Source: Nocardioides ginsengisegetis
GTDB taxonomy: Bacteria > Actinomycetota > Actinomycetes > Propionibacteriales > Nocardioidaceae
Direction of reading: 5' to 3'
Assembly: GCF_014138045.1 (NCBI RefSeq)
Contig: NZ_JACGXA010000001.1
Coordinates: 2,403,001 to 2,467,000 of the forward strand
Length of the DNA stretch: 64,000 bases
A program made the position numbers and the translations under genes. This document shows positions 22,990 to 53,973 of the stretch, one piece after another (positions within the stretch are counted from its first letter, which is position 1; every line of letters begins with the position of its first letter). Below the pieces are notes generated by a model. It made no database searches. It was not told the DNA's origin and worked only from the letters and a program-made list of their open reading frames with translations.

Positions 22990-23344
22990 GGGGTGTCCCT
23001 TTCTGTTCGCGGAGCGATCCGCGGCGTCCCGCTTCGGTGGCGGGGTGTCTCTCTCTCGAGGATCCCGCCCTGTGGTCCCTCCCCGTGTCTGCTGGGAGGG
23101 GGCCGGTCTTCGATCGAGGCTCGCAGCGACTCGCCCGCGTGAGCGGGGCGGGAGCCCTGAGAGCCACTACCGAGGACCGGGCCAGAACGTGCGGGTCGCT
23201 CCTGGTGTGGTGTGTTTGTTCAGTTGTGGCGGCTCCGGGCACGGCCGGTGACCGCCGACGGTCAGACCCTAGCGGGAAAGACCCGAAATGTGAGCGGAGC
23301 GGCCACCCGGACAGGGCAGCCGCTCCACCCTTCGAAGCTGGAGA
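22990..23344 (-). promoter_or_regulatory. pnp leader and rpsO-pnp intergenic region
   Basis: No gene fits in this gap. It contains a GC hairpin with arms GAGCGGC/GCCGCTC (23297-23303 and 23319-23325) 20 bases after the rpsO stop, probably an attenuating terminator or processing site. A small GCGGA-GCGA-TCCGC tetraloop hairpin (23009-23022) lies just ahead of the pnp ribosome site. In other bacteria PNPase controls its own mRNA through such leader structures; here that is inference. Confidence 0.5.
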
Positions 23345-40079: not shown

Positions 40080-40336
40080 GGGTGCGCCGCGTAGCCGATC
40101 GCGCCTCGGCGGTGAGCCAGCAACCGAACCCGACCGGAAGACGGTTCACCAGCCACCGCCCGGCCGACCCGACGGTGAGCCACGAACCGAACCGGGCAGG
40201 GAAACGGTTCACAGCTCACCGCTCCCGCCGCTCCACCCACGCCTCCAGGGCGCCCGCGCATGCGGGCGCCAGTCACCAGCGGCAGTTGCGCGGACCCGAC
40301 GTCGTGCAGCCCGGCGGTTGCGCCGACTCGACCGTC
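40080..40336 (+). repeat. modular palindromic intergenic repeat, copy B
   Basis: It fills the gap between the hydrolase and nusA. Head GGGTGCGCCGCGTAG (40080-40094) overlaps TAGCCGATCGCG (40092-40103). A 110-base core (40111-40220) holds two hairpin units of the form GGTGAGC-N3-GAACCG...CGGTTC-N3-GCTCACC joined by CCGCCCGGCCGACCCGAC. A perfect 9-base hairpin GGCGCCCGC-GCAT-GCGGGCGCC (40249-40270) follows. Two tail motifs of the type GGCAGTTGCGCCGACTCGA sit at 40281-40303 and 40313-40336. The core equals copy C at 97 of 110 positions. Confidence 0.88.
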
Positions 40337-40342
40337 TTCGGC

Positions 40343-41350
40343 TCAGTCCACGGGCGGCGCGACCGGCGGCGCAACCGGCTCGGCCGGCGCTTCGTCGGAC
40401 CGGATGTCGATGCGCCAGCCGGTGAGGCGCGCGGCGAGGCGGGCGTTCTGGCCCTCCTTGCCGATGGCCAGCGACAGCTGGAAGTCCGGCACGACCACCC
40501 GCGCCGAGCGGGCGGCCAGGTCGACGATCTCGACCGAGGTGACCCGCGCCGGCGACAGCGCGTGCGCCACGAGCTCGGCCGGGTCCTCGGACCAGTCGAC
40601 GATGTCGATCTTCTCGCCGTGCAGCTCCGACATCACGTTGCGGACCCGCTGGCCCATGGGGCCGATGCAGGCGCCCTTGGGGTTGACGCCCTGCGCGCGC
40701 GAGGCGACCGCGATCTTGGTGCGGTGGCCGGCCTCGCGGGCGATCGCGGTGATCTCGACGCTGCCGTCGGCGATCTCGGGGACCTCGAGGGCGAACAGCT
40801 TCTTCACCAGGTTGGGGTGGCTGCGCGACAGCGTGATCTGCGGGCCGCGCATGCCCTTGCGGACCGAGACGACCAGGCACTTGATGCGGGTGCCGTGCTC
40901 GTAGCGCTCCCCGGGGACCCGCTCGCCCATCGGCAGCAGCGCCTCGACCCGGCCGAGGTCGACCATGACGTCGTCGGGGTTGCGACCCTGCTGGATGACG
41001 CCGGAGACGATGTCGCCCTCCTTGCCGGAGAACTCACCGAACTTGATGTCGTCCTCGGCGTCGCGCAGGCGCTGCAGCATGATCTGCTTCGCGGTCGTCG
41101 CCGCGATCCGGCCGAAGCCGTCCGGGGTGTCGTCGTACTCGCCGACCGGGTTGCCCTCGTCGTCGACCTCGGTGGCCATGACCGACACGTGGCCGGTCTT
41201 GCGGTCGAGCTCGACGCGCGCCTTCTCCTGGGCGCCGGGCGTCTTGTGGTACGCCGTCAGCAGGGCCTGCTCGATGGCCTCCACGAGAACGTCGAAGGAG
41301 ATCTCCTTCTCCCTCTCGAGCATGCGCAGGATGCTCAGGTCGATGTCCAT
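40343..41350 (-). CDS. nusA: transcription termination/antitermination factor NusA
   Basis: An RNA-polymerase-associated elongation factor of 335 aa with the N-terminal polymerase-binding domain, S1 ([20 protein letters not shown]), KH1 and KH2 ([16 protein letters not shown], then [18 protein letters not shown]). Like other actinobacterial NusA it lacks the C-terminal acidic repeats of Escherichia coli. The tail [15 protein letters not shown] is low complexity. Its ATG overlaps the rimP stop by one base. It normally continues into ylxR-infB; here it ends at repeat copy B. Confidence 0.96.
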
Positions 41351-41856
41351 CAGGCGTCCTCGTCCTCTTCGTCTTCTGGTGCGTGCTTGCGGTTGAACTC
41401 GATCTGGACCAGGGCCTTGGCGACCTCGGTGTAGGCGAGCTCACGGTCCGTGCCGTCGACGTCGAGCGTCACGCGCTCGTCGTCGGAGGCGCCGATGCGC
41501 CCCGTGACGGCATCACCGTCGGTGAGGGTGACCTTGACCAGCCGGTCGGCGTTGCGGCGCCAGTGGCGCGGCAACGTGAGCGGGCGGTCGACACCCCGCG
41601 AGGTGACCTCGAGCGTGTAGGGGTGCTCCCCCATCACGTCGCTCTCCTCGTCCAGCACCCTGTTGACCTCGCGCGTCGCGTCGGCGACGTCGTCGAGGGT
41701 CACCCCGCCGTCCTTGTCCACGGCGATGCGCAGCACCCTGCGCTTGCCGGCAGGGGTGATCTCCACGGCCTCGATGTCGAGGCCCAGGGCACTCAGGGGG
41801 TCGGCGAGCTCGGTCTCGATACGGTCCCGGATGGCGTCCTGCTTGGCGCTGCTCAC
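41350..41856 (-). CDS. rimP: ribosome maturation factor RimP
   Basis: A 30S assembly factor of 168 aa. The N-terminal domain has [20 protein letters not shown] and [18 protein letters not shown]; the segment [20 protein letters not shown] is the family signature. The GTG at 41856 is preceded by AAGGAGG, about 10 bases upstream. The frame stays open to 43014 but crosses the ribosome site and two plus-strand genes. It is the first gene of the rimP-nusA unit. Confidence 0.95.
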
Positions 41857-41956
41857 GAGTGGGCGACCTCCTTGTGCTGTTGTCGGCGACCACGATAGCC
41901 GCTGTCCCGGCCCACCTTCATCTTGCCGCCGACCGCACGGGGATAGGGTCGCTGCC

Positions 41957-42493
41957 GTGCCGGTCACTCCCCCTGTCGAGACCCCCCTGCCCGCCAGTCG
42001 GCGGGGGGCGATCGCCGCTCTGCTGCTGGGATCGGGGGTCCTCGCCGGCTGCGACCTCGACCTGTCCGGCGACGGCTCGGGCGGCCCCTCCGCGTCGGGA
42101 TCCGCGGACCCCGACGCGGCCCTCGTGGACCGGGCCCTGGCCGAGATCGGCGACCTCGCCGCGCTCGTCGCGGCGGTCTCCTCGGACTTCCCGGGACTGC
42201 GCGGGCGACTGGCCCCGTGGGCCGCGCTGCACGACGCGCACAGGGAAGTCCTCGGTGGCGGGACGCCCTCCTCCGCGGCGGCCGGTGCGGGCTCCACGCC
42301 CTCGTTCGCCTCGACGAACGAGGCGCTCACCGAGGTGCGGGGTCGCGAGCAACGCGGCCAGCGGCGGCTCGCGGACTGGGCGGTGGCCGCCGAGAGCGGC
42401 AGCCTGGCCCGGCTCCTGGCCTGCATGTCGGCGGGGGTCGCCCAGCGCCTCGCCCACGATCTCGCTCCGACCGGGGCGGAGGTCCCGGCATGA
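41957..42493 (+). CDS. hypothetical lipoprotein
   Basis: A 178-aa exported protein with a type II signal: basic [15 protein letters not shown] followed by lipobox VLAGC, then a Ser/Gly/Asp-rich spacer and a helical domain rich in Ala and Arg. The GTG at 41957 has TAGGGT (41944-41949) 7 bases upstream, so it is leaderless. It overlaps the ferritin-like gene by 4 bases. The pair next to rimP is a frequent actinobacterial arrangement; function unknown. Confidence 0.82.
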
Positions 42494-42933
42494 CCGCGGA
42501 CTCCCGGGTGGACGCCCTCCAGACCGCTCTGGCGGCCGAGCACGCCGCCGTCTACGTGTACGGCGCCCTCGCGGGCCAGGCGGACCCCGTCACCGACGCC
42601 CGGCTGCGCACGGACCTGACCGCGGCCTATGCGGTGCACCGTGGCCGCCGCGACGCACTGGCCCGGGCCGTGGTCGACGCGGGGGCGACTCCGGTGGCCG
42701 CCGAGCCGGCGTACGAGCTGCCGTCCCCGCTCGGGACCGCGGCTGCGCTCACCCGGGCCGCGCTGGGGCTCGAGCGCGCGACGGCCGAGACCTATGCGTG
42801 GGTGGTGGCCCGGACGACGGGGCCGGACCGGCGTCGGGCCGTGGAGGCCGTGAACGACGCAGCGGTCCGCGAACTCGTCTTCCGGGGAACTCCCGAGATG
42901 CTCCCCGGGGCAAACGAGTACGCGGACCGCTGA
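42490..42933 (+). CDS. ferritin-like domain protein (DUF4439-type)
   Basis: A 147-aa all-helical protein with carboxylates in [17 protein letters not shown] and [18 protein letters not shown] placed as in ferritin-like four-helix bundles. It has no signal peptide. Metal binding is not proven. ATGA overlap couples it to the lipoprotein gene, suggesting a shared role. It ends 155 bases before the convergent HAD gene. Confidence 0.82.
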
Positions 42934-42996
42934 GGCCTGGACAACGAGGCCGTCGGGTGGAGCCGGCGATGTGTGGGGGGACTGCCGACTCCTCCG

Positions 42997-43073
42997 TTGT
43001 GCACAATCATGCAACGCCGCAGGTCAAGGCCGCCATCGGAACGGTTCCTCACGTTTGTGCATTGCACAAACGT
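42997..43073. promoter_or_regulatory. two TTGTGCA-type palindromes in a convergent gap
   Basis: TTGTGCACAA lies at 42997-43006 and a perfect 23-base palindrome ACGTTTGTGCA-T-TGCACAAACGT at 43051-43073. The latter closely resembles 16750-16766. Both flanking genes end here, so no known promoter is present. The sites may mark an unannotated small RNA, or act as 3' hairpins. The rest of the 154-base gap shows nothing else. Confidence 0.45.
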
Positions 43074-43087
43074 GCAGTCGGGGCGTG

Positions 43088-43792
43088 TCAGGGCCAGGAA
43101 CCGACGATCTCGTGGATCTCGGACAGGCGGTGCACGACGGCGTCCGGCTCGCCCTCGGTGTGCCCGACCTGCTCGGGCGGGATCGCACTGTGCGGCACGT
43201 GGATCGCCCGGAGTCCGGCGTGGTGCGCGCCCCAGATGTCGTCGAAGAGGCGGTCCCCCACGTAGACGCACCGGGCCGGGTCGGTGGCGCCGACGGCGTC
43301 CATCGCCGCCCCGAACGCCTTCGGTGAGGGCTTGGTCCACGGGATCTCGGAGGTGTAGACGTCCCCGTCGATCAGGTCCAGGACGCCGTCGCGCTCGAAG
43401 AAGCCGCGGTGCCACTCGCGCGGCCAGATCGTGTTGGACAGCACCCCCACCTTCACGCCGTCGTCGCGCAGCGCCTCGAACAGCGGGCGCACCTCGGGGT
43501 CGGTGAGCGTGTGCGGCTCCCAGAATTCGTAGTACGCCGTGAGCAGGGCCGGGTCGTGGTCGAGACCCGCCTCGTCGAAGAGATCGGCCACCGTCGCGCT
43601 CTGCTGGTGGTCGCGGGAGCGCCCCCACACCACTGACCCGGCCGCGTGCAGCCGGGCGGTGATCTCGTCGTGGGGATGATCCGCGTTGACCACGGCCTGG
43701 GCGAGCGCCAGCGACTCCGCGTGGAAGTCGACGTCGTGCCACTGGGTGAGCGTGCCACCCCAGTCGAAGAGGACGGCCTCGATCCCGGTCAC
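43088..43792 (-). CDS. HAD family hydrolase
   Basis: A 234-aa haloacid-dehalogenase-like protein. The nucleophile D10 is in [12 protein letters not shown]; the position two residues on, usually a second Asp in phosphatases, is Gly, so phosphatase activity is uncertain. Motif II is [10 protein letters not shown], motif III is [11 protein letters not shown], and motif IV is [14 protein letters not shown]. The GTG start overlaps the proS stop by 4 bases, so it is co-expressed with proS. Confidence 0.88.
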
Positions 43793-45573
43793 GCGCGGAC
43801 GAGGCCCACGACGTGGTCGACGACGGAATCGGCGGCGACCTGCTCGCGCTCGCCGGTGGCGCGGTCCTTGACCTCGACGGTGCCGTCGGTGCCCAGGCTC
43901 TTGCCCACGACCACGATCGTCGGGACGCCGATCAGCTCGGCGTCCTTGAACTTCACGCCGGGGCTGACCTTGCCGGTGCGGTCGTCGTAGAGGACGTCGA
44001 TGCCCTGCGCCGAGAGCTCGGTGGCGATGCGGTCGGCGGCGGCGAAGACCTCCTCGTCCTTGCCGGCGGCCACGAGGTGGACATCGGCCGGGGCGACCTC
44101 ACGGGGCCAGCACAGGCCGATCTCGTCGAGGGTGCCCTCGGCGATCGCGGCGACGGCGCGCGACGGGCCGATGCCGTAGGAACCCATCGTCACCGTGACG
44201 AGCTTGCCGTTCTCGTCGAGGACCTTGAGGTCGAGGGCGTCGGCGTACTTGCGGCCGAGCTGGAAGATGTGGCCCATCTCGATGCCGCGGGCCGACTCGA
44301 GGATGCCGCCGTCGGTGTCGCCGCAGGCGGGGCAGGGGTCGCCGTCGCGGACCTCGGCGACGTCGATGACGCCGTCGCCGCTGAAGTCGCGGCCGGCCAC
44401 CAGGTCGAGCACGTGGCTGCCGGCGACGTCGGCACCGGTGACCCAGGCGCTGCCCTCGCCGACGCGCGGGTCGAGGAGGTAGCGGACCTCGGCGGGCTTC
44501 TTCTCGCCGAGCGCACCGGGGCCGATGTAGCCCTTGGCCAGGCTCGGGCGCGAGGCGAAGTCGGCGTCGCCGAAGGGCTCGAACACGACACCCTCGCCCA
44601 GCTTGGACTCCAGGCGCTTGGCGTCGACATCGCGGTCACCGGGCAGGCCGATCGCCAGCGCCTCGGTGGTGCCGTCGGGGTGCTTGAGCGAGAAGACGAC
44701 GTTCTTGAGCGTGTCCGCGGCGTGCCAGGGACGGTCGTCGCGGGGGAACTTCTCGTTGAGGTGGTCGACCAGCGTGTCGATGGTCGGGGTGTCGGGGGTC
44801 TCCTCCGCGTGCGCGGCGGGCGCGTCGTCGTACGCCGTGGGCGCGGCGGGGGTGGTGTCCACCGCCTCCACGTTGGCGGCGTAGTCGCAGCGGGTGCAGC
44901 GGACGTAGGTGTCCTCGCCGACCTCGGCCTTGGCCAGGAACTCCTCGGACTTGGAGCCGCCCATGGCCCCGGCCTCGGCCTTGACGATGACGTACTCGAA
45001 GCCGAGCTTGTCGAAGATCCGGATGTAGGCGTTGCGGTGGGCCTGGTAGCTGGCGTCCAGGCCGGCGTCGTCGACGTCGAAGGAGTAGGAGTCCTTCATG
45101 ACGAACTCGCGGCCGCGCAGCAGGCCCGCGCGGGGACGCGCCTCGTCGCGGTACTTGGTCTGGATCTGGTAGATGGAGAGCGGCAGGTCCTTGTAGGAGG
45201 AGTAGAGGTCCTTCACCACGAGGGTGAACATCTCCTCGTGGGTGGGGCCGAGCAGGTAGTCGTTGCCCTTGCGGTCCTTGAGCCGGAAGATGCCGTCGCC
45301 GTACTCCGTCCAGCGGTTGGTCGCCTCGTAGGGCTCGCGGGGCAGCAACGCGGGGAAGGAGAGCTCCTGGGCGCCGATGGCGTCCATCTCCTCGCGGATG
45401 ATCTGCTCGATCTTGCGGAGCACCTTCAGGCCCAGCGGCAGCCAGGTGTAGATGCCGGGCGCGGCACGGCGGATGTAGCCGGCGCGCACCAGGAGACGGT
45501 GGCTCGGCACCTCGGCGTCCGCGGGGTCCTCTCGCAGGGTCCGCACGAACAGGCTCGACATCCTCATGATCAT
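43789..45573 (-). CDS. proS: prolyl-tRNA synthetase
   Basis: Charges tRNA-Pro. It is a bacterial-type class II synthetase of 594 aa. Motif 2 is visible around [20 protein letters not shown] and motif 3 in [19 protein letters not shown]. The inserted YbaK-like editing domain lies at about residues 240-380, and [12 protein letters not shown] and [10 protein letters not shown] are metal-site-like. The ATG at 45573 has TAGCCT 6 bases upstream (leaderless); ATGs at 45567 and 45561 are alternatives. Confidence 0.96.
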
Positions 45574-45707
45574 GGGGGAAGGCTACTTGCGGGGTGTGGT
45601 GGCCCGCGAACCAGTTCCGTCCCGACGCAACCTTTCCCCGCGCCCCGGCGTCAATGGGCTGCCGGACGATCCGGAAGCACACCACGACTCGACCCTCGGA
45701 GCCCTCG

Positions 45708-46676
45708 ATGAAGCACTCCCGTCTCACCGCCACCCTGGCCGCCCTCGCCGGTCTCGCCGCCCTCGCGGCGCCCGCCGCTGCCGCCGACGCCACCACCCAG
45801 ATCCGCCCCGGCACGCTGTCGCGCGGCCCGGCCGGGACGGTCCCCCACGTCTACGGCTCGGACCTGATCGACGGCGACCGGCACTTCTCGTTCGCGGGCC
45901 GCGAGGTGGTCTTCCTCGGCAAGTCCGGCGACGACTACCTCGTCGGCACCTGGCGCCAGGGCAGCACGACCTCCGAGAAGGTCGTGCGCGTGACGCCGGA
46001 CGGACTGCGCACGACCGTCCTGAAGGGCGTCGAGCCCTCCTCGATCAGCCTCTCGCGGGACGGCGACCGACTGGTCCGGTCGCGCTACCTCGACAAGACG
46101 AAGCAGAGCCAGGTCAAGGCCTGGAGCTCCGCGGACGGCACGCCCGTCGCCCAGCGCACCTTCGCCGGCTACATCTCCGTGCTCGACGCCGACGGGTCGA
46201 AGATGGTGCTGAGCGGCAGCCTGCCGAGCCGGACCTTCTGGTGGAGCACCGGGAGCAACTCGACCAAGCGGATCTCCACCCTCACCGGCTACGAGGCCAG
46301 CATCCCGGCCGACCGGCTGGCCGTGCTGACCGGCGACCCCTACCAGGGCGGCTGCTCGGTGGTCTCCACGCTCTCCGACCCGGGCACCCGGATCTGGCGC
46401 AGCTGCGAGCAGGCGGTGATGGAGTTCTCGCCGTCGGGCAACCGGGTCACCACCGTCCACATCCTCACCGACGGCCTCGGCCCCGGAGTCGTCGAGCTGC
46501 ACAAGGTCGGCGGCAAGCTGCTGCACCGGTGGTCGACGTACTACTTCGGCCAGGTGCTGTTCGAGTCGGGTGACACGATGCTGATGCTCGCGCACGGCAA
46601 GACCAAGACGGCGTGGGTGCGCTGCACCGGCGCCGACTGCGAGCGCACGTCCAAGCTGACCGACACGCAGCTCTGA
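45708..46676 (+). CDS. secreted hypothetical protein, beta-propeller-like
   Basis: A 322-aa exported protein with a clear Sec signal (MKHSRLTATLAALAGLAALA, cleavage likely after APAAAA). The mature part consists of repeated beta-rich blocks of about 45 residues (SISLSRDGDRLVRSRYLD, SVLDADGSKMVLSGSLPS, MEFSPSGNRVTTVHILTD), suggesting a TolB/WD-like propeller. No catalytic motif is visible. Four cysteines could form two disulfides. GGAG lies 6 bases before the ATG. It ends 2 bases from the convergent DoxX gene. Confidence 0.78.
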   Translation: MKHSRLTATLAALAGLAALAAPAAAADATTQIRPGTLSRGPAGTVPHVYGSDLIDGDRHFSFAGREVVFLGKSGDDYLVGTWRQGSTTSEKVVRVTPDGLRTTVLKGVEPSSISLSRDGDRLVRSRYLDKTKQSQVKAWSSADGTPVAQRTFAGYISVLDADGSKMVLSGSLPSRTFWWSTGSNSTKRISTLTGYEASIPADRLAVLTGDPYQGGCSVVSTLSDPGTRIWRSCEQAVMEFSPSGNRVTTVHILTDGLGPGVVELHKVGGKLLHRWSTYYFGQVLFESGDTMLMLAHGKTKTAWVRCTGADCERTSKLTDTQL

Positions 46677-46678
46677 GG

Positions 46679-47044
46679 TCAGTCCCCGCGTGCGGCGTTG
46701 AGCGCGGCCCGGATCATCGGCCACTGCAGCGGCAGCCGGGCGAAGGCGGCGACCTTCAGCCCCGTCCTGCGGGATCGGCGGACGTCCATCGCCATCTTCA
46801 CGTTGCCCGGGTAGACGCCGACCAGCAGGGCGGCCGAGGCCAGGCCCGCCACCCGACGGGTCTGCGGCACGACCAGGCCGGCGGCGCAGGCCAGCTCGGC
46901 GACACCGCTGCCGAGGATCACCTCGCGGTGGGCCGGCACCCAGCTCGGCATCAGGGGCTCGTAGACCTCGGGCTTGACCAGGTGGACGGCGCCGCTGACG
47001 GCGAAGAGACCGGCCAGGACCTGGGTGCCGCGGGAGATGCTCAC
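46679..47044 (-). CDS. DoxX-like small membrane protein
   Basis: A 121-aa protein with four hydrophobic helices and the segments VLAGLFAVSGAVHLVKPEVY and LGSGVAELACAAGLVVPQTR, typical of the DoxX/MauE-like family; function not established. The GTG at 47044 is set by TAGGTT (reverse complement of 47052-47057), 7 bases upstream. The open frame to 47071 runs through that box and is not used. It has its own promoter after the terminator of the upstream phosphoesterase gene. Confidence 0.82.
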   Translation of the reverse strand: MSISRGTQVLAGLFAVSGAVHLVKPEVYEPLMPSWVPAHREVILGSGVAELACAAGLVVPQTRRVAGLASAALLVGVYPGNVKMAMDVRRSRRTGLKVAAFARLPLQWPMIRAALNAARGD

Positions 47045-47074
47045 GCCGGCCAACCTAGCCGCCGGACGCAACGA

Positions 47075-47108
47075 CGGGTGGGCCCGGTCCGAGGACCGGG
47101 CCCACCCG
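47075..47108 (-). terminator. 16-bp perfect hairpin terminator
   Basis: Arms 47075-47090 (CGGGTGGGCCCGGTCC) and 47093-47108 are exact complements with 2 loop bases. It follows the stop of the phosphoesterase gene by 34 bases on the minus strand and precedes the DoxX promoter. Confidence 0.8.
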
Positions 47109-47142
47109 CTTTCGGGTCGTCGCCCCGGGAGGTGGGGGGCGA

Positions 47143-48786
47143 CTACTTGTTGCCGGCGGCGACTGCCGCGGCCAGGCTGTGGGCACCCGCGTCGCGGGTC
47201 GACAGCGGAGCCAGGCCGAAGCTCCGCTCGAGGGTCGCCAGGATCGACGTGGTGTCGTACGTCGTGTGGTCGACCGCCGAGTGCTTCAGCGACGTCGACA
47301 GCACCAGCGCCGGCACCCGGGTGCCCGGGCCCCAGGCGTCCACCTTCGGCGGCGAGACGTGGTCCCAGGTGCCACCGAACTCGTCGTAGGTGACGACCAC
47401 GAGGGTCTTGTCGGCCTGCGGCGAGCTGCTGATGGTCTTGAGCAGCTTGACCAGGTGGTCCGAGCCGTTGGGCTCGGACGCGTAGCCCGGGTGCTCGTTC
47501 TCGGCGCCGTAGGGCTTCACGAACGACACCGTCGGCAGGTGGCCCGCCTTCGCGGCCGAGAAGAAGTTCGTCTCGTCCTGCAGGTGGGCGCGGCCCGGCT
47601 TGCCGGGCGCGTAGTCGGCGAAGTAGTTGAACGGCTGGTGGTGGTACTGGAACAGCGCGCCCGGGTGGCCGGCCTCCGCGTCGTCCCAGCCGCCGGAGTA
47701 CCAGTTCCAGCTGATGCCGGCGCCGGTCAGGCGGTCGCCGATGTTGGGGTACTGCGCGTCGTCGATCAGCGGGAGCTGCGCACCCGAGCCGTGCGGCGTG
47801 CTGGTCGGCTGGATGGTGTTGACGGCGTAGTCACCGCAGGCGTGAACCGCATCGTTGAGGGCCGGGTCGCCCGCGCACTCCTGGGTCAGCTTGTCGTCGA
47901 CCACGCTGCCGGTCGCGTGGTACTGCGGGTAGCTCGTGGGCATCCCGTTGGCGTCCAGCACGGAGTTCTTCGCGCCGGACGCACCGTTGCTGGTGTCGAG
48001 GGGGGCCCGCGCGGCGATCAGGAACTGGTGGTTGAGGAACGACCCACCGAACGCGCCCTGGAAGAAGTGGTCGGCCACGACGTACTTCGGCGCGGCGTCG
48101 CTGTGGAGGTACTTCCAGATCGGCAGCTGCTTGGTGGCGTAGTGGCCCTGCGTGAGGCCGACCGCGTCGGAGCCGGTCGTGTAGCGGTCCTGCTTGCCGC
48201 CGTCGATCTGGTACTGCTCCTGGTAGAAGCGGTGGACCAGGTCGCGGGTGCAGCCGCCCGGCTCGGCGCCGTCGGAGTCCTTCAGGACGCCGTTGGGGGC
48301 GTAGACGCCCTCGGCCGGGCACGTCTTGTCCTCGGGCCTGATGTAGTCGTCGATGGCGAACGGCTTGTTGGCGAAGTGGCTGGCCGAGACGCCGTGGGCG
48401 TCGTCCTGGCAGGTGCTGGAGAGCGGCGGCGAGGTCAGGTTGACGTCGTCCTGCGGGAGGCAGGAGTACGCCGTGCCGTCCTGCGCGACCTGGGTCGCCC
48501 GGGCCCTCGGCGCGTCGGACAGGCCCACGACGTGCTGGCCGTGCACCTGTCCCCAGGTGCCGTAGAGGTTGTCGAAGGAGTGGTTCTCCTCGTAGATGAC
48601 GACCAGGTGCTGGTAGCCACCCGGCAGGTGGCCGGGCGCGGTCGCCGCAGGGGCGGCCGCGGCGGTGGGCTCCCCGGTGGGCGCGTGGCGGTGGGTGGAG
48701 GCGGCCATCGCGGCCCCGCTCCCGAGCAGGAGGACAGTGGCGGTCGCGGTCCCGATGAGGACCTTCCGCAGACGTGAGGTGCGCAT
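47143..48786 (-). CDS. secreted phosphoesterase, PF04185 (phospholipase C/acid phosphatase-like)
   Basis: A 547-aa exported enzyme of the alkaline-phosphatase superfamily. A Sec signal (MRTSRLRKVLIGTATATVLL) is followed by a Pro/Ala spacer. The metal and nucleophile region is HLVVIYEENHSFDNLYG, and VVVTYDEFGGTWDHVSPP near residue 470 and FVKPYGAENEHPGYASE are further family segments. The substrate may be a phospholipid or another phosphate ester. GGAGG lies 10 bases before ATG 48786. A strong terminator follows. It is one of three such enzymes within 6.4 kb. Confidence 0.88.
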   Translation of the reverse strand: MRTSRLRKVLIGTATATVLLLGSGAAMAASTHRHAPTGEPTAAAAPAATAPGHLPGGYQHLVVIYEENHSFDNLYGTWGQVHGQHVVGLSDAPRARATQVAQDGTAYSCLPQDDVNLTSPPLSSTCQDDAHGVSASHFANKPFAIDDYIRPEDKTCPAEGVYAPNGVLKDSDGAEPGGCTRDLVHRFYQEQYQIDGGKQDRYTTGSDAVGLTQGHYATKQLPIWKYLHSDAAPKYVVADHFFQGAFGGSFLNHQFLIAARAPLDTSNGASGAKNSVLDANGMPTSYPQYHATGSVVDDKLTQECAGDPALNDAVHACGDYAVNTIQPTSTPHGSGAQLPLIDDAQYPNIGDRLTGAGISWNWYSGGWDDAEAGHPGALFQYHHQPFNYFADYAPGKPGRAHLQDETNFFSAAKAGHLPTVSFVKPYGAENEHPGYASEPNGSDHLVKLLKTISSSPQADKTLVVVTYDEFGGTWDHVSPPKVDAWGPGTRVPALVLSTSLKHSAVDHTTYDTTSILATLERSFGLAPLSTRDAGAHSLAAAVAAGNK

Positions 48787-48855
48787 GGGGCCAAGCCTCC
48801 ATGCCCGGGCGAGCGTCAATCTCCCGCGAGGTGAACCCCGGGTGAATTCAGCTGC

Positions 48856-49698
48856 TCAGAACATGACCGTCGCGAACCGCGCCGTCTCCACGAAGCCGAC
48901 CTTCGCGTAGGTCCGGCGGGCGGAGTCGTTCCAGTTGTTGACGTAGAGCGAGACGATCGGTGCCACTTCGCGCCGCACCAGCTCGACCACGGCGGCCATG
49001 CCGGCGGTCGCCAGCCCCTCGCCGCGGCGGTCCGGCGGCACCCAGACCCCCTGGATCTGCGCGGCGTACGGCGTGGCGCAGGCGACCTCGGCCTTGAAGA
49101 CCAGCCGGCCCTCGTCGAAGCGGGCGAAGGACCACCCGCGGTTCATCAGCTGGGTGACGCGCGCCCGGTAGAGCTCGGCGCCGCCGCCGTACTCCGGGGA
49201 GATGCCGACCTCCTCGGTGTACATCGCGACACAGGCCGGATAGAGCTCGTCCATGTCCGTGCGGGTGGTGCGGCGTACGCCGGGGTCCGGGGCGACCAGC
49301 GGCGTACCGCGGATCTCGAGGTGCGGCTGGTTCCACCGGAGCTCGCGCGGCTTGCCCCACCCGGCGGCGACGCCGTTCCAGAACACCTGCACGGCGTCGT
49401 GCGGACCCACGATCGTCGAGACGGTGCGTCCCCGCGTCAGCGCCCGCTCGGCGAACGCGCGTGCGTCCTCGGCGGTGGCCTGCACCGGCACCAGGTTGGC
49501 GCCGACGTGGCAGGCCGCCACCATCTCCCCGCCGTCGAAGCGGCCCCACATCTCGCCGCCGAGCCAGCGCGGCTCGAGGTTGGTCGTGCGGGCGCGGTAG
49601 TCGGTGAAGACGTTGACCACGGGGTCGCGGGACGCGAGCGCCAGGAAGGCGTCGAGGTCCGTGGCACCCAGCGGGCGCACTCCGTGGCGGGTGAGCAC
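48856..49698 (-). CDS. DUF4081 domain GNAT acetyltransferase
   Basis: A 280-aa protein with an N-terminal DUF4081 region (VRPLGATDLDAFLALASRDP) and a C-terminal GNAT domain with GVWVPPDRRGEGLATAGMAA and YVNNWNDSARRTYAKVGF. This type normally sits beside ispG in actinobacteria; here 4.3 kb of other genes intervene. The GTG at 49698 has TAGGCT (reverse complement of 49705-49710) 6 bases upstream, so it is leaderless. Substrate unknown. Confidence 0.9.
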   Translation of the reverse strand: MLTRHGVRPLGATDLDAFLALASRDPVVNVFTDYRARTTNLEPRWLGGEMWGRFDGGEMVAACHVGANLVPVQATAEDARAFAERALTRGRTVSTIVGPHDAVQVFWNGVAAGWGKPRELRWNQPHLEIRGTPLVAPDPGVRRTTRTDMDELYPACVAMYTEEVGISPEYGGGAELYRARVTQLMNRGWSFARFDEGRLVFKAEVACATPYAAQIQGVWVPPDRRGEGLATAGMAAVVELVRREVAPIVSLYVNNWNDSARRTYAKVGFVETARFATVMF

Positions 49699-49707
49699 GC
49701 TGGGAGC

Positions 49708-50958
49708 CTAGAGGACGGCCTGTCGCTCGGGCCCCGCCTCCGCAGCGCGTCGCAGCGGCGAGGTCCAGGCGACGGCCACGGCCACGAGCTGGACGCACGC
49801 GAAGGCCAGCATGGTGGCGCGCAGCCCCAGGGGGCCGACCACGAGGCCGGAGAGGAGCGCACCGCCGGTCCAGCCGACGCCCCAGCTGAGCATCCGGCCC
49901 GCGGTGTTGACCCGGCCGAGGAGGTGCTCGGGAGTCACCTGCTGGCGGTAGGAGACGGCGTTGATCGCCGCCATCGTGGCGGCGTAGGACCAGGCGACCA
50001 TCAGCGGCGCGACCAACCACCAGGTGCCGAGCCGGGACACGACGATGCCGATGACCGCGCCCGCCGGCAGGACGCCCAAGGTGATCTGTGCCGGCGTCAG
50101 GAAGTGGATCAGGCGCGGCAGGCTCAGCGACGCCACCAGGCCGCCCAACGCCCACGCGGCGTAGGTGATCCCGAATCGCCAGCCCTCGGTGCCCAGGCCC
50201 AGGACCCGGTCGAGCCAGACGACGGTGAGGGCCATGTAGCCGCCGAGCGAGAGGTTCTGGATCGCGCTGGTCAGCGTCATGGTGCGCACCCCGGCGTGCC
50301 CGCCCAACCAGGCCAGCCCCTCGCGGATGTCGCGCAGCACCAGTCCGGCGGTGAGTGGCGGGCGGGGCCGGGACGCGTCGTACAGGGGGCGGGTGATGCC
50401 GGAGACGAGCACGGCCGACACGGCGAACGTGACCGCGTCGAAGCCGAGCAGCCACGCCGGGTCGAGCACCGCGATCAGCACGCCGACGACCGAGGGCACG
50501 ACGATCTCGAGCACGCTCTGCACCGACCAGGTGGCCGACGTGGCCGCGGCGATCCGGTCGCGGCCGACGATCATCGGGAGCGCCCCGAAGACCGCGCCGT
50601 CGAGGAAGACGCCGATCGTGGGACCGAGGAACGCCACGGCGAGCACGTGCGGGACGGTCACGCGGCCGAGGAGCGCCGCGAGCGGGATCGTGGCGAGCAG
50701 CAGCGTGCTCAGGACGTCGGCCACCACCATGACCCGGTGCCTGTTCCACCGGTCCGTGAGGGCACCGGAGAACAGCCCGAAGAGCAGGTACGGCGCCGCC
50801 TGGCAGCCGGCGACCAGCGCCGTCAGCCCGGCGTCGTGGCTGGTGCGGTAGACGAGCACCGGGAGTGCGACCAGCGTGGCGACGCTGCCGGTCGCACTCA
50901 GGGCGCGGGCGAGGAGGTACCGGAGGAAGTGGGGGTCCCGCAGGATCGTCGGCCTCAC
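49708..50958 (-). CDS. MFS transporter
   Basis: A 416-aa permease with about twelve helices. The MFS loop between helices 2 and 3 is GALTDRWNRHRVMVVADVLS. It resembles the MFS group related to enterobactin exporter EntS or macrolide efflux proteins; the substrate is unknown. The GTG at 50958 (VRPTILRDPHFLRYL) is chosen because the frame upstream runs into the phosphoesterase gene; there is no convincing ribosome site. Its short distance from the phosphoesterase pair suggests one transcript. Confidence 0.85.
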   Translation of the reverse strand: MRPTILRDPHFLRYLLARALSATGSVATLVALPVLVYRTSHDAGLTALVAGCQAAPYLLFGLFSGALTDRWNRHRVMVVADVLSTLLLATIPLAALLGRVTVPHVLAVAFLGPTIGVFLDGAVFGALPMIVGRDRIAAATSATWSVQSVLEIVVPSVVGVLIAVLDPAWLLGFDAVTFAVSAVLVSGITRPLYDASRPRPPLTAGLVLRDIREGLAWLGGHAGVRTMTLTSAIQNLSLGGYMALTVVWLDRVLGLGTEGWRFGITYAAWALGGLVASLSLPRLIHFLTPAQITLGVLPAGAVIGIVVSRLGTWWLVAPLMVAWSYAATMAAINAVSYRQQVTPEHLLGRVNTAGRMLSWGVGWTGGALLSGLVVGPLGLRATMLAFACVQLVAVAVAWTSPLRRAAEAGPERQAVL

Positions 50959-50984
50959 CGACGCCGACGGCTCACGTGTCCCAG

Positions 50985-52169
50985 TCAGTTGTCCCAGCCC
51001 GAGTTGTAGACGTCGAGGCCGAACGTCTCCACCCCGGGATCGTTGGCGTAGCCGAGCTTGTCGACCCCGAAGATCTCCTCCATCGACCCGAGCAGGGAGT
51101 AGTGGTTGTAGGGGGTCGTGCTCCAGGTGTTGGGCTTGACGAACCTGCTCAGCACCAGTGCGCCGATCCGGCCACCACCCGGGCCGGAGATGCCCGGCAT
51201 CGCGCTGTTGGCGGAGGTCTCGGGGCCGCAGCAGGCGGTGGCGTCGGTCTGCGGACCGTCGGACTCGTCGGCGGTGATGTAGATGGCGCCGTTGCGGCGG
51301 TAGGCCGGCGAGGCCATCAGGATCGGCACCCACTTCTTCATCCACGTGTTGATCGACGTCAGCCCACCGGGACGCCCGTCGGCGCACGGGGCGTCGTGGC
51401 CGTCGTGGCACAGGTCGGGGGTGATGTAGACGAGGTTGGGCGTCGTGCGCGCGGTCTGGAGGTCCTTGCGCAGGTGCTTCATCCCGACGACGTGCCGCTC
51501 GCAGTACTTCTGGTGCCCGATGATCGACATGAAGTAGACGAAGGGGTTGTGCCGGACGGCGTAGTTCTTGGTCGCCGTCGCGTGCTGCGTCGGGTCGGGC
51601 TGGTCGACGGCCGGGTGCTGGCACGGGCGACGCATGTCGTCCATGTAGCCCCTCCACGACAGGCCCTTGTCGGTCAGCTGGCGCGGCAGCGTCGCGACCT
51701 CCTCGGGGAACACGCAGCCCTGGCCGACCGCCTGGCCGGGGTCCTGGTCACCGGTCTTCACGAACGTCGAGAACGTCTGGCAGTCCGACTGCATGACCGG
51801 GTTGGGGCCCTGCCCCGAGACCTGCGCGATGTAGTTGGGCTGGGAGTTGTGCGCCGTGCCGTAGTAGTGGTCGAGCAGCACGCCCTGCTTGCGCAGGGTC
51901 TTGGCGAGGTAGGGCGCCTCGGAGGTGTCGCCCCAGGTCTTGTCGTAGCCCTTGTTCTCGATGTTGATCACGAACACGTGCTTGATCGGCGGGACGTACG
52001 CCGACGTGCCGGCGCGCTGCAGGGGCGCCGTGCGGACGGCGGCCGTGTGGGCCGACTGCTGGGTGGTCGGACGGAACGCGGCGTCGGCCGGCGGCAGGAC
52101 CAGGGCGAGGGCCGTGGCGGCGAGCAGCACCAGGCGGGTGCGTCGGGCGATCAATTCGGGAGTCTCCAT
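50985..52169 (-). CDS. secreted phosphoesterase, PF04185
   Basis: A 394-aa exported enzyme. After a signal peptide (LVLLAATALALVLPPADA) the metal-site segment reads HVFVINIENKGYDKTWG, and the second metal-site segment is YITADESDGPQTD. GTAHNSQPNYIAQVSGQGP is a further conserved block. Several cysteines suggest disulfides. Its ATG lies 19 bases inside the 3' end of the upstream TAT phosphoesterase gene, so the two are coupled. Substrate unknown. Confidence 0.87.
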   Translation of the reverse strand: METPELIARRTRLVLLAATALALVLPPADAAFRPTTQQSAHTAAVRTAPLQRAGTSAYVPPIKHVFVINIENKGYDKTWGDTSEAPYLAKTLRKQGVLLDHYYGTAHNSQPNYIAQVSGQGPNPVMQSDCQTFSTFVKTGDQDPGQAVGQGCVFPEEVATLPRQLTDKGLSWRGYMDDMRRPCQHPAVDQPDPTQHATATKNYAVRHNPFVYFMSIIGHQKYCERHVVGMKHLRKDLQTARTTPNLVYITPDLCHDGHDAPCADGRPGGLTSINTWMKKWVPILMASPAYRRNGAIYITADESDGPQTDATACCGPETSANSAMPGISGPGGGRIGALVLSRFVKPNTWSTTPYNHYSLLGSMEEIFGVDKLGYANDPGVETFGLDVYNSGWDN

Positions 52170-53467
52170 CCCTGGTCGAGGGCGAGCTCCTTGAGCTCAC
52201 CCCATTCGGCGAACTCGGCGCCACCCTCCTCCTTCGGCGCGGTCGCGCAGCCGAGAGGAGTGACGGTGGGGACGGTGTAGGTCGGGGACGCGGTGTTCGG
52301 TGGGTTGCCGAAGTCGAGCACCTCGGCGATGTTACGGGCGTTGGCGTCGCGGGGCGTCAGCGGCTTGAGGCCCCAGCGCCACTCGATCATCCTGAGCACC
52401 GAGGTGTGGTCGTAGACGTGGTGGGAGATGTAGTTGCGACGGGCCAGCGGCGAGATCATCAGCGCCGGCACCCGGAAGCCGCGCAGGGCGGTCTTGGGCG
52501 AGACGTCCGGCGCCGTGGTGGGCGGGACGTGGTCGTAGAAGCCGCCCCACTCGTCGTAGTTGATGACCAGGACGGTCTTCTCCCAGCCCGGACCGTTGCG
52601 CACCGCGTCGTACACCTGGTTGAGGAAGGCCTGGCCCGCGCGCACGTCGGCGTGCGGGTGGTCGTCGTTGGAGGTGCCGGACTCCTCGTCCTGGAAGCGC
52701 GGGTCGACGAACGACACGGCCGGCAGGGTGCCCGCGGCGGCGTCGGTGAGGAAGTCGGCGAAGTGGAACGAGATGTCCTGGTGGGTGCCGTACCAGAGCG
52801 CGGTGAAGGGCACGTCGCTGTAGTAGTACTTGCCCGAGACGCCCTTGGCCGCGAGCCGGTCCCAGATCGTCTTGAGCGTGCACTGGCTGGTGTTGTTGTG
52901 CAGCCGGTCGGTCTGTGCGGCGTGCATGTAGAAGCGGTTGGGGTAGGTCTCGGCCATCACCGCGGAGAAGTAGCGGTCGAAGGTCGTCCAGTCGCGGGCC
53001 GCGCCGGCGTAGAACGGCAGGTCGGCGTCGGTGTAGTAGCCGATCGCGAGCAGGTCGTTGCGGCCCGACCGCAGGAAGCCGTTGCACTTGCCCCCGTTGA
53101 GCTGGATCCGGCCACCCTCGTAGGAGTGGTCGGGGTCGTTGAAGCCGCAACTGTCGAAGGCCTCGAGGTGGTGCGTCTGGTGACGCACGCCGTAGCGGTC
53201 CTTGTAGGTCAGGCCCGCCTGCTTGCCGTCGGCACCGGGCAGCCAGCCGAGGAAGTGGTCGAAGGAGCGGTTCTCCATCATCACCACCACGACGTGCTCG
53301 ATGCCGGACTTGCCCGGCGCGGGCAGCACGCTCGTGGTGTCGGTCCGGGTGCTGGTGGAGCTGGCTGCGTTGGCTGCGTCCTCGGGCCACCAGCGGGTGG
53401 CGCCGGCGGCCGCGGCGAGGCCGGTGGCCCCCGCCGCGCCGAGCAGCTGTCGTCGGGAGATCGTCAC
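52151..53467 (-). CDS. TAT-exported phospholipase C-like phosphoesterase
   Basis: A 438-aa PF04185 enzyme with a twin-arginine signal (ISRRQLLGAAGATGLAAAAG), so it is exported folded, probably with metals bound. The active-site block is HVVVVMMENRSFDHFLGWLP; later blocks are SFVDPRFQDEESGTSNDDHP and VLVINYDEWGGFYDHVPPTT. This is closest to the bacterial phospholipase C subgroup of the three. The GTG at 53467 fits the TAT signal; the open frame to 53599 enters repeat copy C. Overlaps the next phosphoesterase by 19 bases. Confidence 0.9.
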   Translation of the reverse strand: MTISRRQLLGAAGATGLAAAAGATRWWPEDAANAASSTSTRTDTTSVLPAPGKSGIEHVVVVMMENRSFDHFLGWLPGADGKQAGLTYKDRYGVRHQTHHLEAFDSCGFNDPDHSYEGGRIQLNGGKCNGFLRSGRNDLLAIGYYTDADLPFYAGAARDWTTFDRYFSAVMAETYPNRFYMHAAQTDRLHNNTSQCTLKTIWDRLAAKGVSGKYYYSDVPFTALWYGTHQDISFHFADFLTDAAAGTLPAVSFVDPRFQDEESGTSNDDHPHADVRAGQAFLNQVYDAVRNGPGWEKTVLVINYDEWGGFYDHVPPTTAPDVSPKTALRGFRVPALMISPLARRNYISHHVYDHTSVLRMIEWRWGLKPLTPRDANARNIAEVLDFGNPPNTASPTYTVPTVTPLGCATAPKEEGGAEFAEWGELKELALDQGWRLPN

Positions 53468-53550
53468 AGGCTGAACTATGCGCTGCCCAGCGCGCCGCGT
53501 CACGGTTCTGGACGAGATTCGTCGGCTTGTTCGCCGGACGTTCAACACAG

Positions 53551-53973
53551 ACGTCGACTCGGCGCTACTGCAGACGCCCAGACGCTCGAGTCGGCGCAAC
53601 TGCCGGGGGTGACTGGCGCCCGCGCGGGTGGCCCGCTGGCGGCGGGAGCGGTGAGCTGTGAACCCTTTCGCCGCACGGTTCGGTTCTTAGCTCACCGTCG
53701 GGTCGGCCGGGCGGTGGGTGATGAACCGTTTCCAGGTCGGGTTCGGTTCATGGCTCACCGCTGGGGCCGCTCGGGGTGCGCCTGGGGCGGGGCGGCGGCG
53801 GAGCGCAGCGGAGCCTCGCCCCGACCGCCGCCTGAAGCCGATCGCGCGAGGCTCGCAGTCAAGGACGCCGAAGGCGCCGCGAAGCGGGCGGAGCTCCTTG
53901 ACGGCGAGACGCGATCGGCTACCGCAGCGCACCCCACCCGCAGACGGCAGGTGCGCCGACTCGGCGGTCGGGT
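53551..53973 (-). repeat. modular palindromic intergenic repeat, copy C (expanded)
   Basis: It fills most of the 505-base gap after ispG and lies in the minus orientation. Head GGGGTGCGC (reverse complement of 53927-53935) runs into TAGCCGATCGCG (53910-53921). Next is a long hairpin with arms 53836-53865 and 53895-53920 sharing AGCCGATCGCG and GTCAAGGA. A second, inverted head GGGGTGCGCC is at 53773-53782. The 110-base two-unit core is at 53650-53759. GCGGGCGCCAGTCACC and two GCGCCGACTCGA tail motifs end at about 53551. A further tail-like motif at 53943-53969 runs up to the ispG stop. No gene is visible; 53468-53550 holds the phosphoesterase promoter region. Confidence 0.85.

Follow-up and report, generated by a model that had tools for sequence, protein, structure and literature searches.

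The repeats closest in organisation to those treated here are the repetitive extragenic palindromes (REPs) and their hairpin-forming doublets (REPINs), which together with the REP-associated tyrosine transposases (RAYTs) make up the REPtrons. In the accessible parts of PMC2817692 and PMC3733652, the RAYT gene is described as flanked by palindromic repeats that are dispersed over the whole genome, with repeat and protein apparently co-evolving. The available text of PMC2817692 also proposes that RAYTs establish REPs, and describes bacterial interspersed mosaic elements (BIMEs) as modular mosaics of REP arrays in alternating orientation. A second relevant group are the AbiEi proteins, which according to the available portion of PMC7319586 bind inverted repeats in their own promoter. 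Here we describe arrays of inverted boxes in Nocardioides ginsengisegetis and the gene of a protein, X, that lies between two such arrays. Two array copies, A and B, are found in a stretch of 64,000 nucleotides (contig NZ_JACGXA010000001.1, positions 2,403,001 to 2,467,000), called the window below; G and L numbers are our labels for genomes and loci, G000 being the genome of the window.

The repeat is probably not an RNA element but belongs to a large set of scattered arrays in which DNA boxes recur at regular distances. Its unit is 47 bp long: a 16-bp box and its inverted copy enclose a 15-bp loop whose sequence is almost free. The reading that we favour, with reasonable but far from full confidence, is that the boxes are cognate binding sites of X, a predicted nuclease, and that the arrays resemble REPs and RAYTs in organisation, although the enzyme is unrelated. 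The arrays, their geometry and their association with X are observed; that X binds and cuts, and that arrays move, we infer. As in REPtrons, X is flanked by palindromic repeats, the repeats are dispersed, and protein and palindrome vary together. Unlike in REPtrons, there is no Y1 (HUH) transposase, the partner is a predicted nuclease of AbiEi/EDxHD type, and the 47-bp units are helically phased. The arrays share alternating orientation and modular mosaics with BIMEs, as far as these are covered by the text available to us, but differ in box sequence and geometry and are, by the pattern used, nearly confined to the genus. X differs from AbiEi antitoxins and Rv2827c-type regulators by an additional nuclease-like domain, and by having arrays on both sides of its gene as well as genome-wide. 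It differs from the EDxHD/Vsr-type homing endonuclease I-Bth0305I in that it was not seen in an intron and is flanked by arrays. In the accessible text of the open-licence literature, we found no description of these arrays or of a link between a DUF559/AbiEi-type protein and repeats.

Protein X and the arrays on its two sides

A comparison of array-adjacent genes revealed one family, X, that in four species lies between arrays. It has 337 amino acids, is present as a single copy in its own genome (G000:C3:183236-184246), and is predicted to combine an AbiEi-like part with an I-Bth0305I-like nuclease fold that includes the conserved acidic and histidine residues. These putative nuclease residues are invariant in all 29 of 29 homologs. 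For three X proteins, nothing scored above the Pfam cut-off and there was no NCBIfam match; PF13338 (AbiEi_4) gave one match below the cut-off (E 0.024, 15.2 bits, cut-off 25), and PF04480 (DUF559) gave none up to E 5. Among homologs, P0009 carries PF13338 in the database, and P0029 and P0039 are named DUF559 by a source. PADLOC models for AbiEi matched four of five proteins, with the best E at 1.1e-07 (P0009) and 9.7e-04 for the X of G013. A sequence search of the PDB with the query A2 found one antitoxin at E 0.55; the same search returned 13 designed 'Pizza' proteins, matching a short middle stretch and none of them passing alone, which we took as spurious.

Homologs of X are common, with 986 at E<=0.001 among 8000 candidates scored. 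Within the genus, a search with three X sequences (at most 10 candidates scored per genome) gave matches at E<=1e-10 in 115 of 209 genomes, and 58 above 200 bits among the matches listed. A scan of named genomes yielded 79 X loci, 57 of them close (L220-L276; Nocardioides, Aeromicrobium and Pseudactinotalea) and 22 distant (Actinomadura, Mycobacterium, Agrococcus and others). The 57 close loci fall into 20 neighbourhoods, the largest with 25 loci, and X is mostly inherited in place, as expected of a domesticated or slowly moving gene.

The association of X with arrays was measured in 56 of the 57 close loci, one X at a contig end being left out. At 44 of the 56, the flanks have six or more copies of one approximate 15-mer, a number reached in 7 of 187 control windows taken from these loci; 42 of the 56 have two or more boxes on each side. 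Counting CGGTG..CACCG spans, where the inner box is not assumed, 42 of 112 flank windows have a span of 48 and 42 a span of 49, against 2 and 0 of 186 controls. Left and right flanks also resemble each other: similarity above the 99% point of 159 control genes was seen at 37 of 56 close loci in direct and at 42 of 56 in inverted orientation. For more distant paralogs in the genus the numbers are 13 and 9 of 19 (one of 20 loci had no gene call and was excluded), and for distant loci of other genera 9 and 10 of 21 (one of 22 excluded). Some distant X-like genes of Mycobacterium (L285, L289, L292) have downstream repeats about 20 bp apart. Other DUF559-like genes of G000 were found in four places, three of them over the cut-off, and at the three with a gene call there are no clear flanking arrays.

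Box sequence follows X within genomes. In 12 genomes (three of them with a single dispersed unit), box positions 11-12 of the X-side arrays match those of the dispersed arrays with a mean probability of 0.732, against 0.349 with the genomes shuffled (p=5e-5). Among 22 X loci of one neighbourhood, the left and right arrays share a locus-specific box (0.729 within, 0.502 between loci; p<=0.0005). Loci with more similar X also tend to have more similar boxes (Mantel test with 51 loci, r 0.37, p 0.001; with the 25 loci of one neighbourhood, r 0.16, p 0.044). Strict units and a strong X match occur together in 17 genomes, units only in 10, X only in 41 and neither in 141, an odds ratio of 5.8 (p 4e-5); the table assumes that all 27 unit-bearing genomes are among the 209 searched, which is confirmed for 19. 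All of these statistics are inflated by shared ancestry. Weighing against the favoured reading is the missing strong X match in 10 of the 27 unit-bearing genomes.

Two other explanations bear directly on the role of X. Classical REP or BIME elements moved by a RAYT, that is a Y1 transposase, would likewise appear as alternating palindromes near gene ends in many copies. However, the domain Y1_Tnp (PF01797) was found in 0 of 1 own genome and in 1 of 209 genus genomes (G150, which has no strict unit), and RAYT was rejected as the partner because none was found in array-bearing genomes; we regard this explanation as highly improbable. The other explanation is that the boxes are operators only, with X an AbiEi-like autoregulator and the dispersed arrays its regulon or host architectural sites, and no nuclease-driven spread. 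It draws on the AbiEi precedent of binding inverted repeats in the own promoter (PMC7319586, in its available portion), and on boxes that are conserved and loops that are free. Yet the arrays lie on both sides of X in most loci rather than upstream alone, and the putative nuclease residues are invariant in the homologs compared. Overall we hold it to be unlikely, and return to it with the array sites below.

Helical spacing and the question of RNA

The distance between the two boxes of a unit is identical in 173 of 196 extracted units, which in part reflects a search pattern restricted to four lengths; the same extraction on reversed sequences gave 7 units. Adjacent units are separated by gaps of 15-16 bp (31 pairs), 25-26 bp (60) or 36-37 bp (12), together 103 of 113 pairs, with tandem duplicates and twice-fetched loci kept in the count. 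The resulting periods of 62-63, 72-73 and 83-84 bp correspond to about 6, 7 and 8 turns of DNA at about 10.5 bp per turn. At 43 of the 57 X loci (those with at least six boxes and above shuffles), spacings between boxes of the same orientation peak at 31, 41, 72/73 and 82/83, with a best period of 10.5 bp. Single CGGTG spacings at the X flanks have a best period of 10.4 (R 0.37, n 276), against 10.8 (R 0.22, n 128) in controls. Runs of same-orientation boxes about 29-31 bp apart are present besides inverted pairs at L263 (Pseudactinotalea) and L268 (Aeromicrobium), and long tandem arrays of 8 to 11 units at L086 (G010), L128 (G182), and L179 and L182 (G190).

A second protein-box pair has the same geometry. 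The junction between rseP and ispG (Peptidase_M50 and GcpE by Pfam) is 22 bp long in G000 and has the order array-X-array in G013 and G065. In G097, G016, G176 and G082 (L331, L347, L349, L351) it holds a divergent paralog, Y, between units of another box (GGACGTCAT..ATGACGTCC). Of the distinct Y-box pairs in the fetched loci, 15 have a span below 100 bp, and in every one of these the inner 8-mers span 45 or 46 bp, giving a unit of 47-48 bp; four further pairs at 107-109 bp join adjacent units, which occur in two loci and there have a period of 62 or 63 bp. Unit size and period are therefore kept with a different box, so the geometry persists under complete change of the box. For the Y of G082, the gene caller gave just 168 amino acids. 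In G065 (L330), X is broken into two pieces in different frames, with arrays kept on both sides.

The original prediction had put forward an undescribed repeat or structured-RNA family. A dispersed, mostly intergenic repeat family it is, but the RNA part finds weak support at best. As RNA, the arrays would form hairpins in tandem, placed at gene 3' ends to terminate transcription or protect mRNA, and the predicted hairpins are indeed strong. Covariation was examined in 173 units collapsed to 71 from 26 genomes, after a chance unit (L063:1873) was dropped. Within genomes, stem pairs 12-36 (z 3.7) and 10-38 (z 3.1) covary, as an RNA would suggest. However, the variable pairs 5-43, 6-42, 7-41 and 16-32 do not (within-genome z 0.5, 0.7, -1.6 and 0.2), and 8-40 and 9-39 are complementary less often than in shuffles (z -2.4 and -1.7). 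Pair 11-37 covaries between genomes only (z 4.8 global, 0.0 within), pair 15-33 has an excess globally and not within genomes (z 3.5 and 1.1), and positions 17/18 and 30/31 are mainly A or T yet not complementary. The covarying pairs reflect the box classes GAACC, CAACC and CCACC, with both arms changing together, which would be equally expected if a protein-binding box is present twice and its copies change in coordination. Against RNA stand the helical quantisation of the spacing, which an RNA hairpin does not need, and several variable stem positions without covariation; in addition, arrays lie upstream of X as well, and the element has no match in Rfam at gathering thresholds. We consider it quite improbable. 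The sole Rfam match in the window is an Actino-pnp RNA (RF01688) at 23102-23181 on the minus strand, with 55.6 bits, above the gathering score. On the sequence evidence, we read the boxes as recognised in double-stranded DNA, a role as RNA, single-strand hairpin or cruciform being possible.

Array sites in the genomes and the two window copies

A BLAST search of the 4.46 Mb genome G000 with copy A (40 of 76 candidates scored) found at least 19 places including copy A itself, with 87-100% identity over 116-122 bases, and further diverged places. The half-box pattern (<=3 mismatches) has 117 sites in G000 (55 forward, 62 reverse), against 9 for a reversed-pattern control. In the genus, BLAST with four candidates scored per genome gave matches in 28 of 196 genomes including the own one, some of them short and perhaps due to chance. 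The strict unit pattern is found in 27 of 215 genus genomes including the own one, and the reversed pattern in 0. In a phylum sample of 396 genomes it is found in two, G000 and G259, a member of another family whose match we took as chance. The original prediction had allowed for these being the only two copies, with none in relatives; the search that it proposed has instead found many in both the genome and its relatives.

The arrays lie at the ends of genes. By our own gene caller, clusters lie in convergent, tandem and divergent regions in the numbers 10, 11 and 2 in the own genome and 29, 32 and 1 in relatives, together 39, 43 and 3; the remaining intergenic regions of these sequences, counted from a length of 80 bp upwards, divide into 7, 25 and 27 (p=5e-10). 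Nine 'inside' clusters overlapping a called gene and four 'edge' clusters were excluded from the 98, and a few of the counted clusters belong to X loci. The avoidance of divergent regions would suit hairpin RNAs at gene ends, and speaks against the operator reading.

Four sets of dispersed arrays have corresponding positions in different species, next to orthologous genes or within their ends. These are L007 with L155; L078 with L165; L157, L158 and L186, all three with arrays running over the 3' end of one shared called gene; and L066 with L187, which share a called gene that has the unit within its 3' part. The flanking or host proteins are 61-93% identical. L003 and L124 were not counted as a shared site, as their flanking proteins are just 30-39% identical. 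In two sets the box class differs, with GAACC in G000 and CCACC in G088, and CAACC in G055 and CCACC in G088 and G099. Shared sites with a switched box class point to selection or conversion in trans, and make a host function, as in the operator reading, a serious rival to spread by a nuclease.

In the window, the half-box pattern (<=3 mismatches) has 5 matches against 0.51 expected, and none of 100 shuffles reaches 5. As the original prediction had it, 40111-40220 (plus) and 53759-53650 (minus) form an ungapped alignment with 97 matches in 110 positions, and copies A and B do not differ in the 18-base linker. Each core does contain two inverted units. The proposed form GGTGAGC-N3-GAACCG...CGGTTC-N3-GCTCACC needs correction in the first unit, where the right arm is not GCTCACC and ends in GCCACC (copy A) or CCCACC (copy B), and where copy A shows CAACCG instead of GAACCG in its first left arm. 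Both copies lie outside genes by our simple gene caller, in agreement with the claim that they are non-coding, but mechanical open reading frames cross both. Copy A lies between convergent genes, an alpha/beta-hydrolase gene on the plus strand and a NusA-like gene on the minus strand. Copy B is flanked by two minus-strand genes, one for GcpE (ispG) and one for a phosphoesterase.

Array units and surrounding modules in the window (coordinates within the 64,000 nucleotides)
Feature	Coordinates	Strand	Remarks
Copy A unit 1, 47 bp	40111..40157	+	box F, 15-bp loop, box R (right arm diverged)
Copy A inter-unit linker, 16 bp	40158..40173	+	period 63 bp; gap class 15-16
Copy A unit 2, 47 bp	40174..40220	+	
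19-mer near GAGTCGGCGCAACTGCCGG, right of copy A	40279..40329	-	two matches (40279-40297, 40311-40329)
19-mer near GAGTCGGCGCAACTGCCGG, right of copy B	53588..53606	+	opposite orientation
Copy B unit 2, 47 bp	53650..53696	-	
Copy B inter-unit linker, 16 bp	53697..53712	-	period 63 bp
Copy B unit 1, 47 bp	53713..53759	-	
Left module of the mosaic around copy B, 161 bp	53775..53935	-	9 places in G000, 89-100% over nearly whole length
19-mer near GAGTCGGCGCAACTGCCGG, left of copy B	53944..53962	-	<=3 mismatches

In G000 the recent copies are embedded in larger mosaics. The modules in the table raise the possibility of an ordinary miniature inverted-repeat transposable element (MITE), in which an unrelated transposase would move a composite bounded by outer inverted repeats, the 117-bp core travelling as its passenger. 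Besides the nine places of the left module, this is favoured by the 19 copies having the LM5 string of the left module in 10, the right module in 12 and the outer 19-mer in 7 (within 900 bp), and by the homologous copy B junction of G008, from ispG to the same phosphoesterase, being without the insert. However, copy B (L013) is the single one of the 19 copies that has the outer 19-mer to its left and to its right, and this is the reason for the low weight we give to this explanation. The module content differs from copy to copy, no target duplication was established, and a MITE would cover the recent copies of G000 only, not the units of 26 other genomes nor the arrays at X loci. We think it improbable. 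The left module has internal inverted repeats and partial further places, and may be a repeat family of its own.

A possible enzyme-repeat partnership

The favoured reading, with boxes as cognate sites of X, can be put as a sequence of steps. Each 47-bp unit would present an inverted pair of double-stranded recognition boxes, with units repeated in helical register. X, which sits between two arrays of its own box, would combine a nuclease domain of EDxHD/Vsr type (DUF559-like) with an AbiEi-like region for DNA binding, and would most likely occupy the inverted boxes in a cooperative manner, along one face of the double helix. Judging from its conserved nuclease residues, it may cut DNA as well. 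Repair of the breaks might then spread the arrays or keep them uniform, as has been proposed for RAYTs and REPs, and the window copies would be dispersed, non-autonomous arrays of the box class of X, retained mostly away from promoters. The partnership of REPs and RAYTs was itself recognised from the same kind of evidence (PMC2817692, in the part available).

A wider and more tentative proposal, to which we give somewhat less than an even chance, is that actinobacterial nucleases of AbiEi/EDxHD type each have a private set of boxes in phased units of about 47 bp. These would serve spread or uniformity by cutting and repair, or form nucleoprotein structures at the ends of transcription units, and new pairs would arise as the DNA-binding part and the box co-evolve. 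This would be a second, independent origin of a REP/RAYT-like system, with many orthogonal pairs.

The helical register leads to direct and cheap predictions for binding assays. If the partnership is real, a second one with an unrelated nuclease would mean that systems of a repeat plus an enzyme arise repeatedly, and the homologs of X, a large protein family so far without a role, would have a suggested one. It would also account for one kind of repeat between the genes of Nocardioides and Aeromicrobium, and would offer many natural protein-box pairs for the study of how DNA recognition co-evolves.

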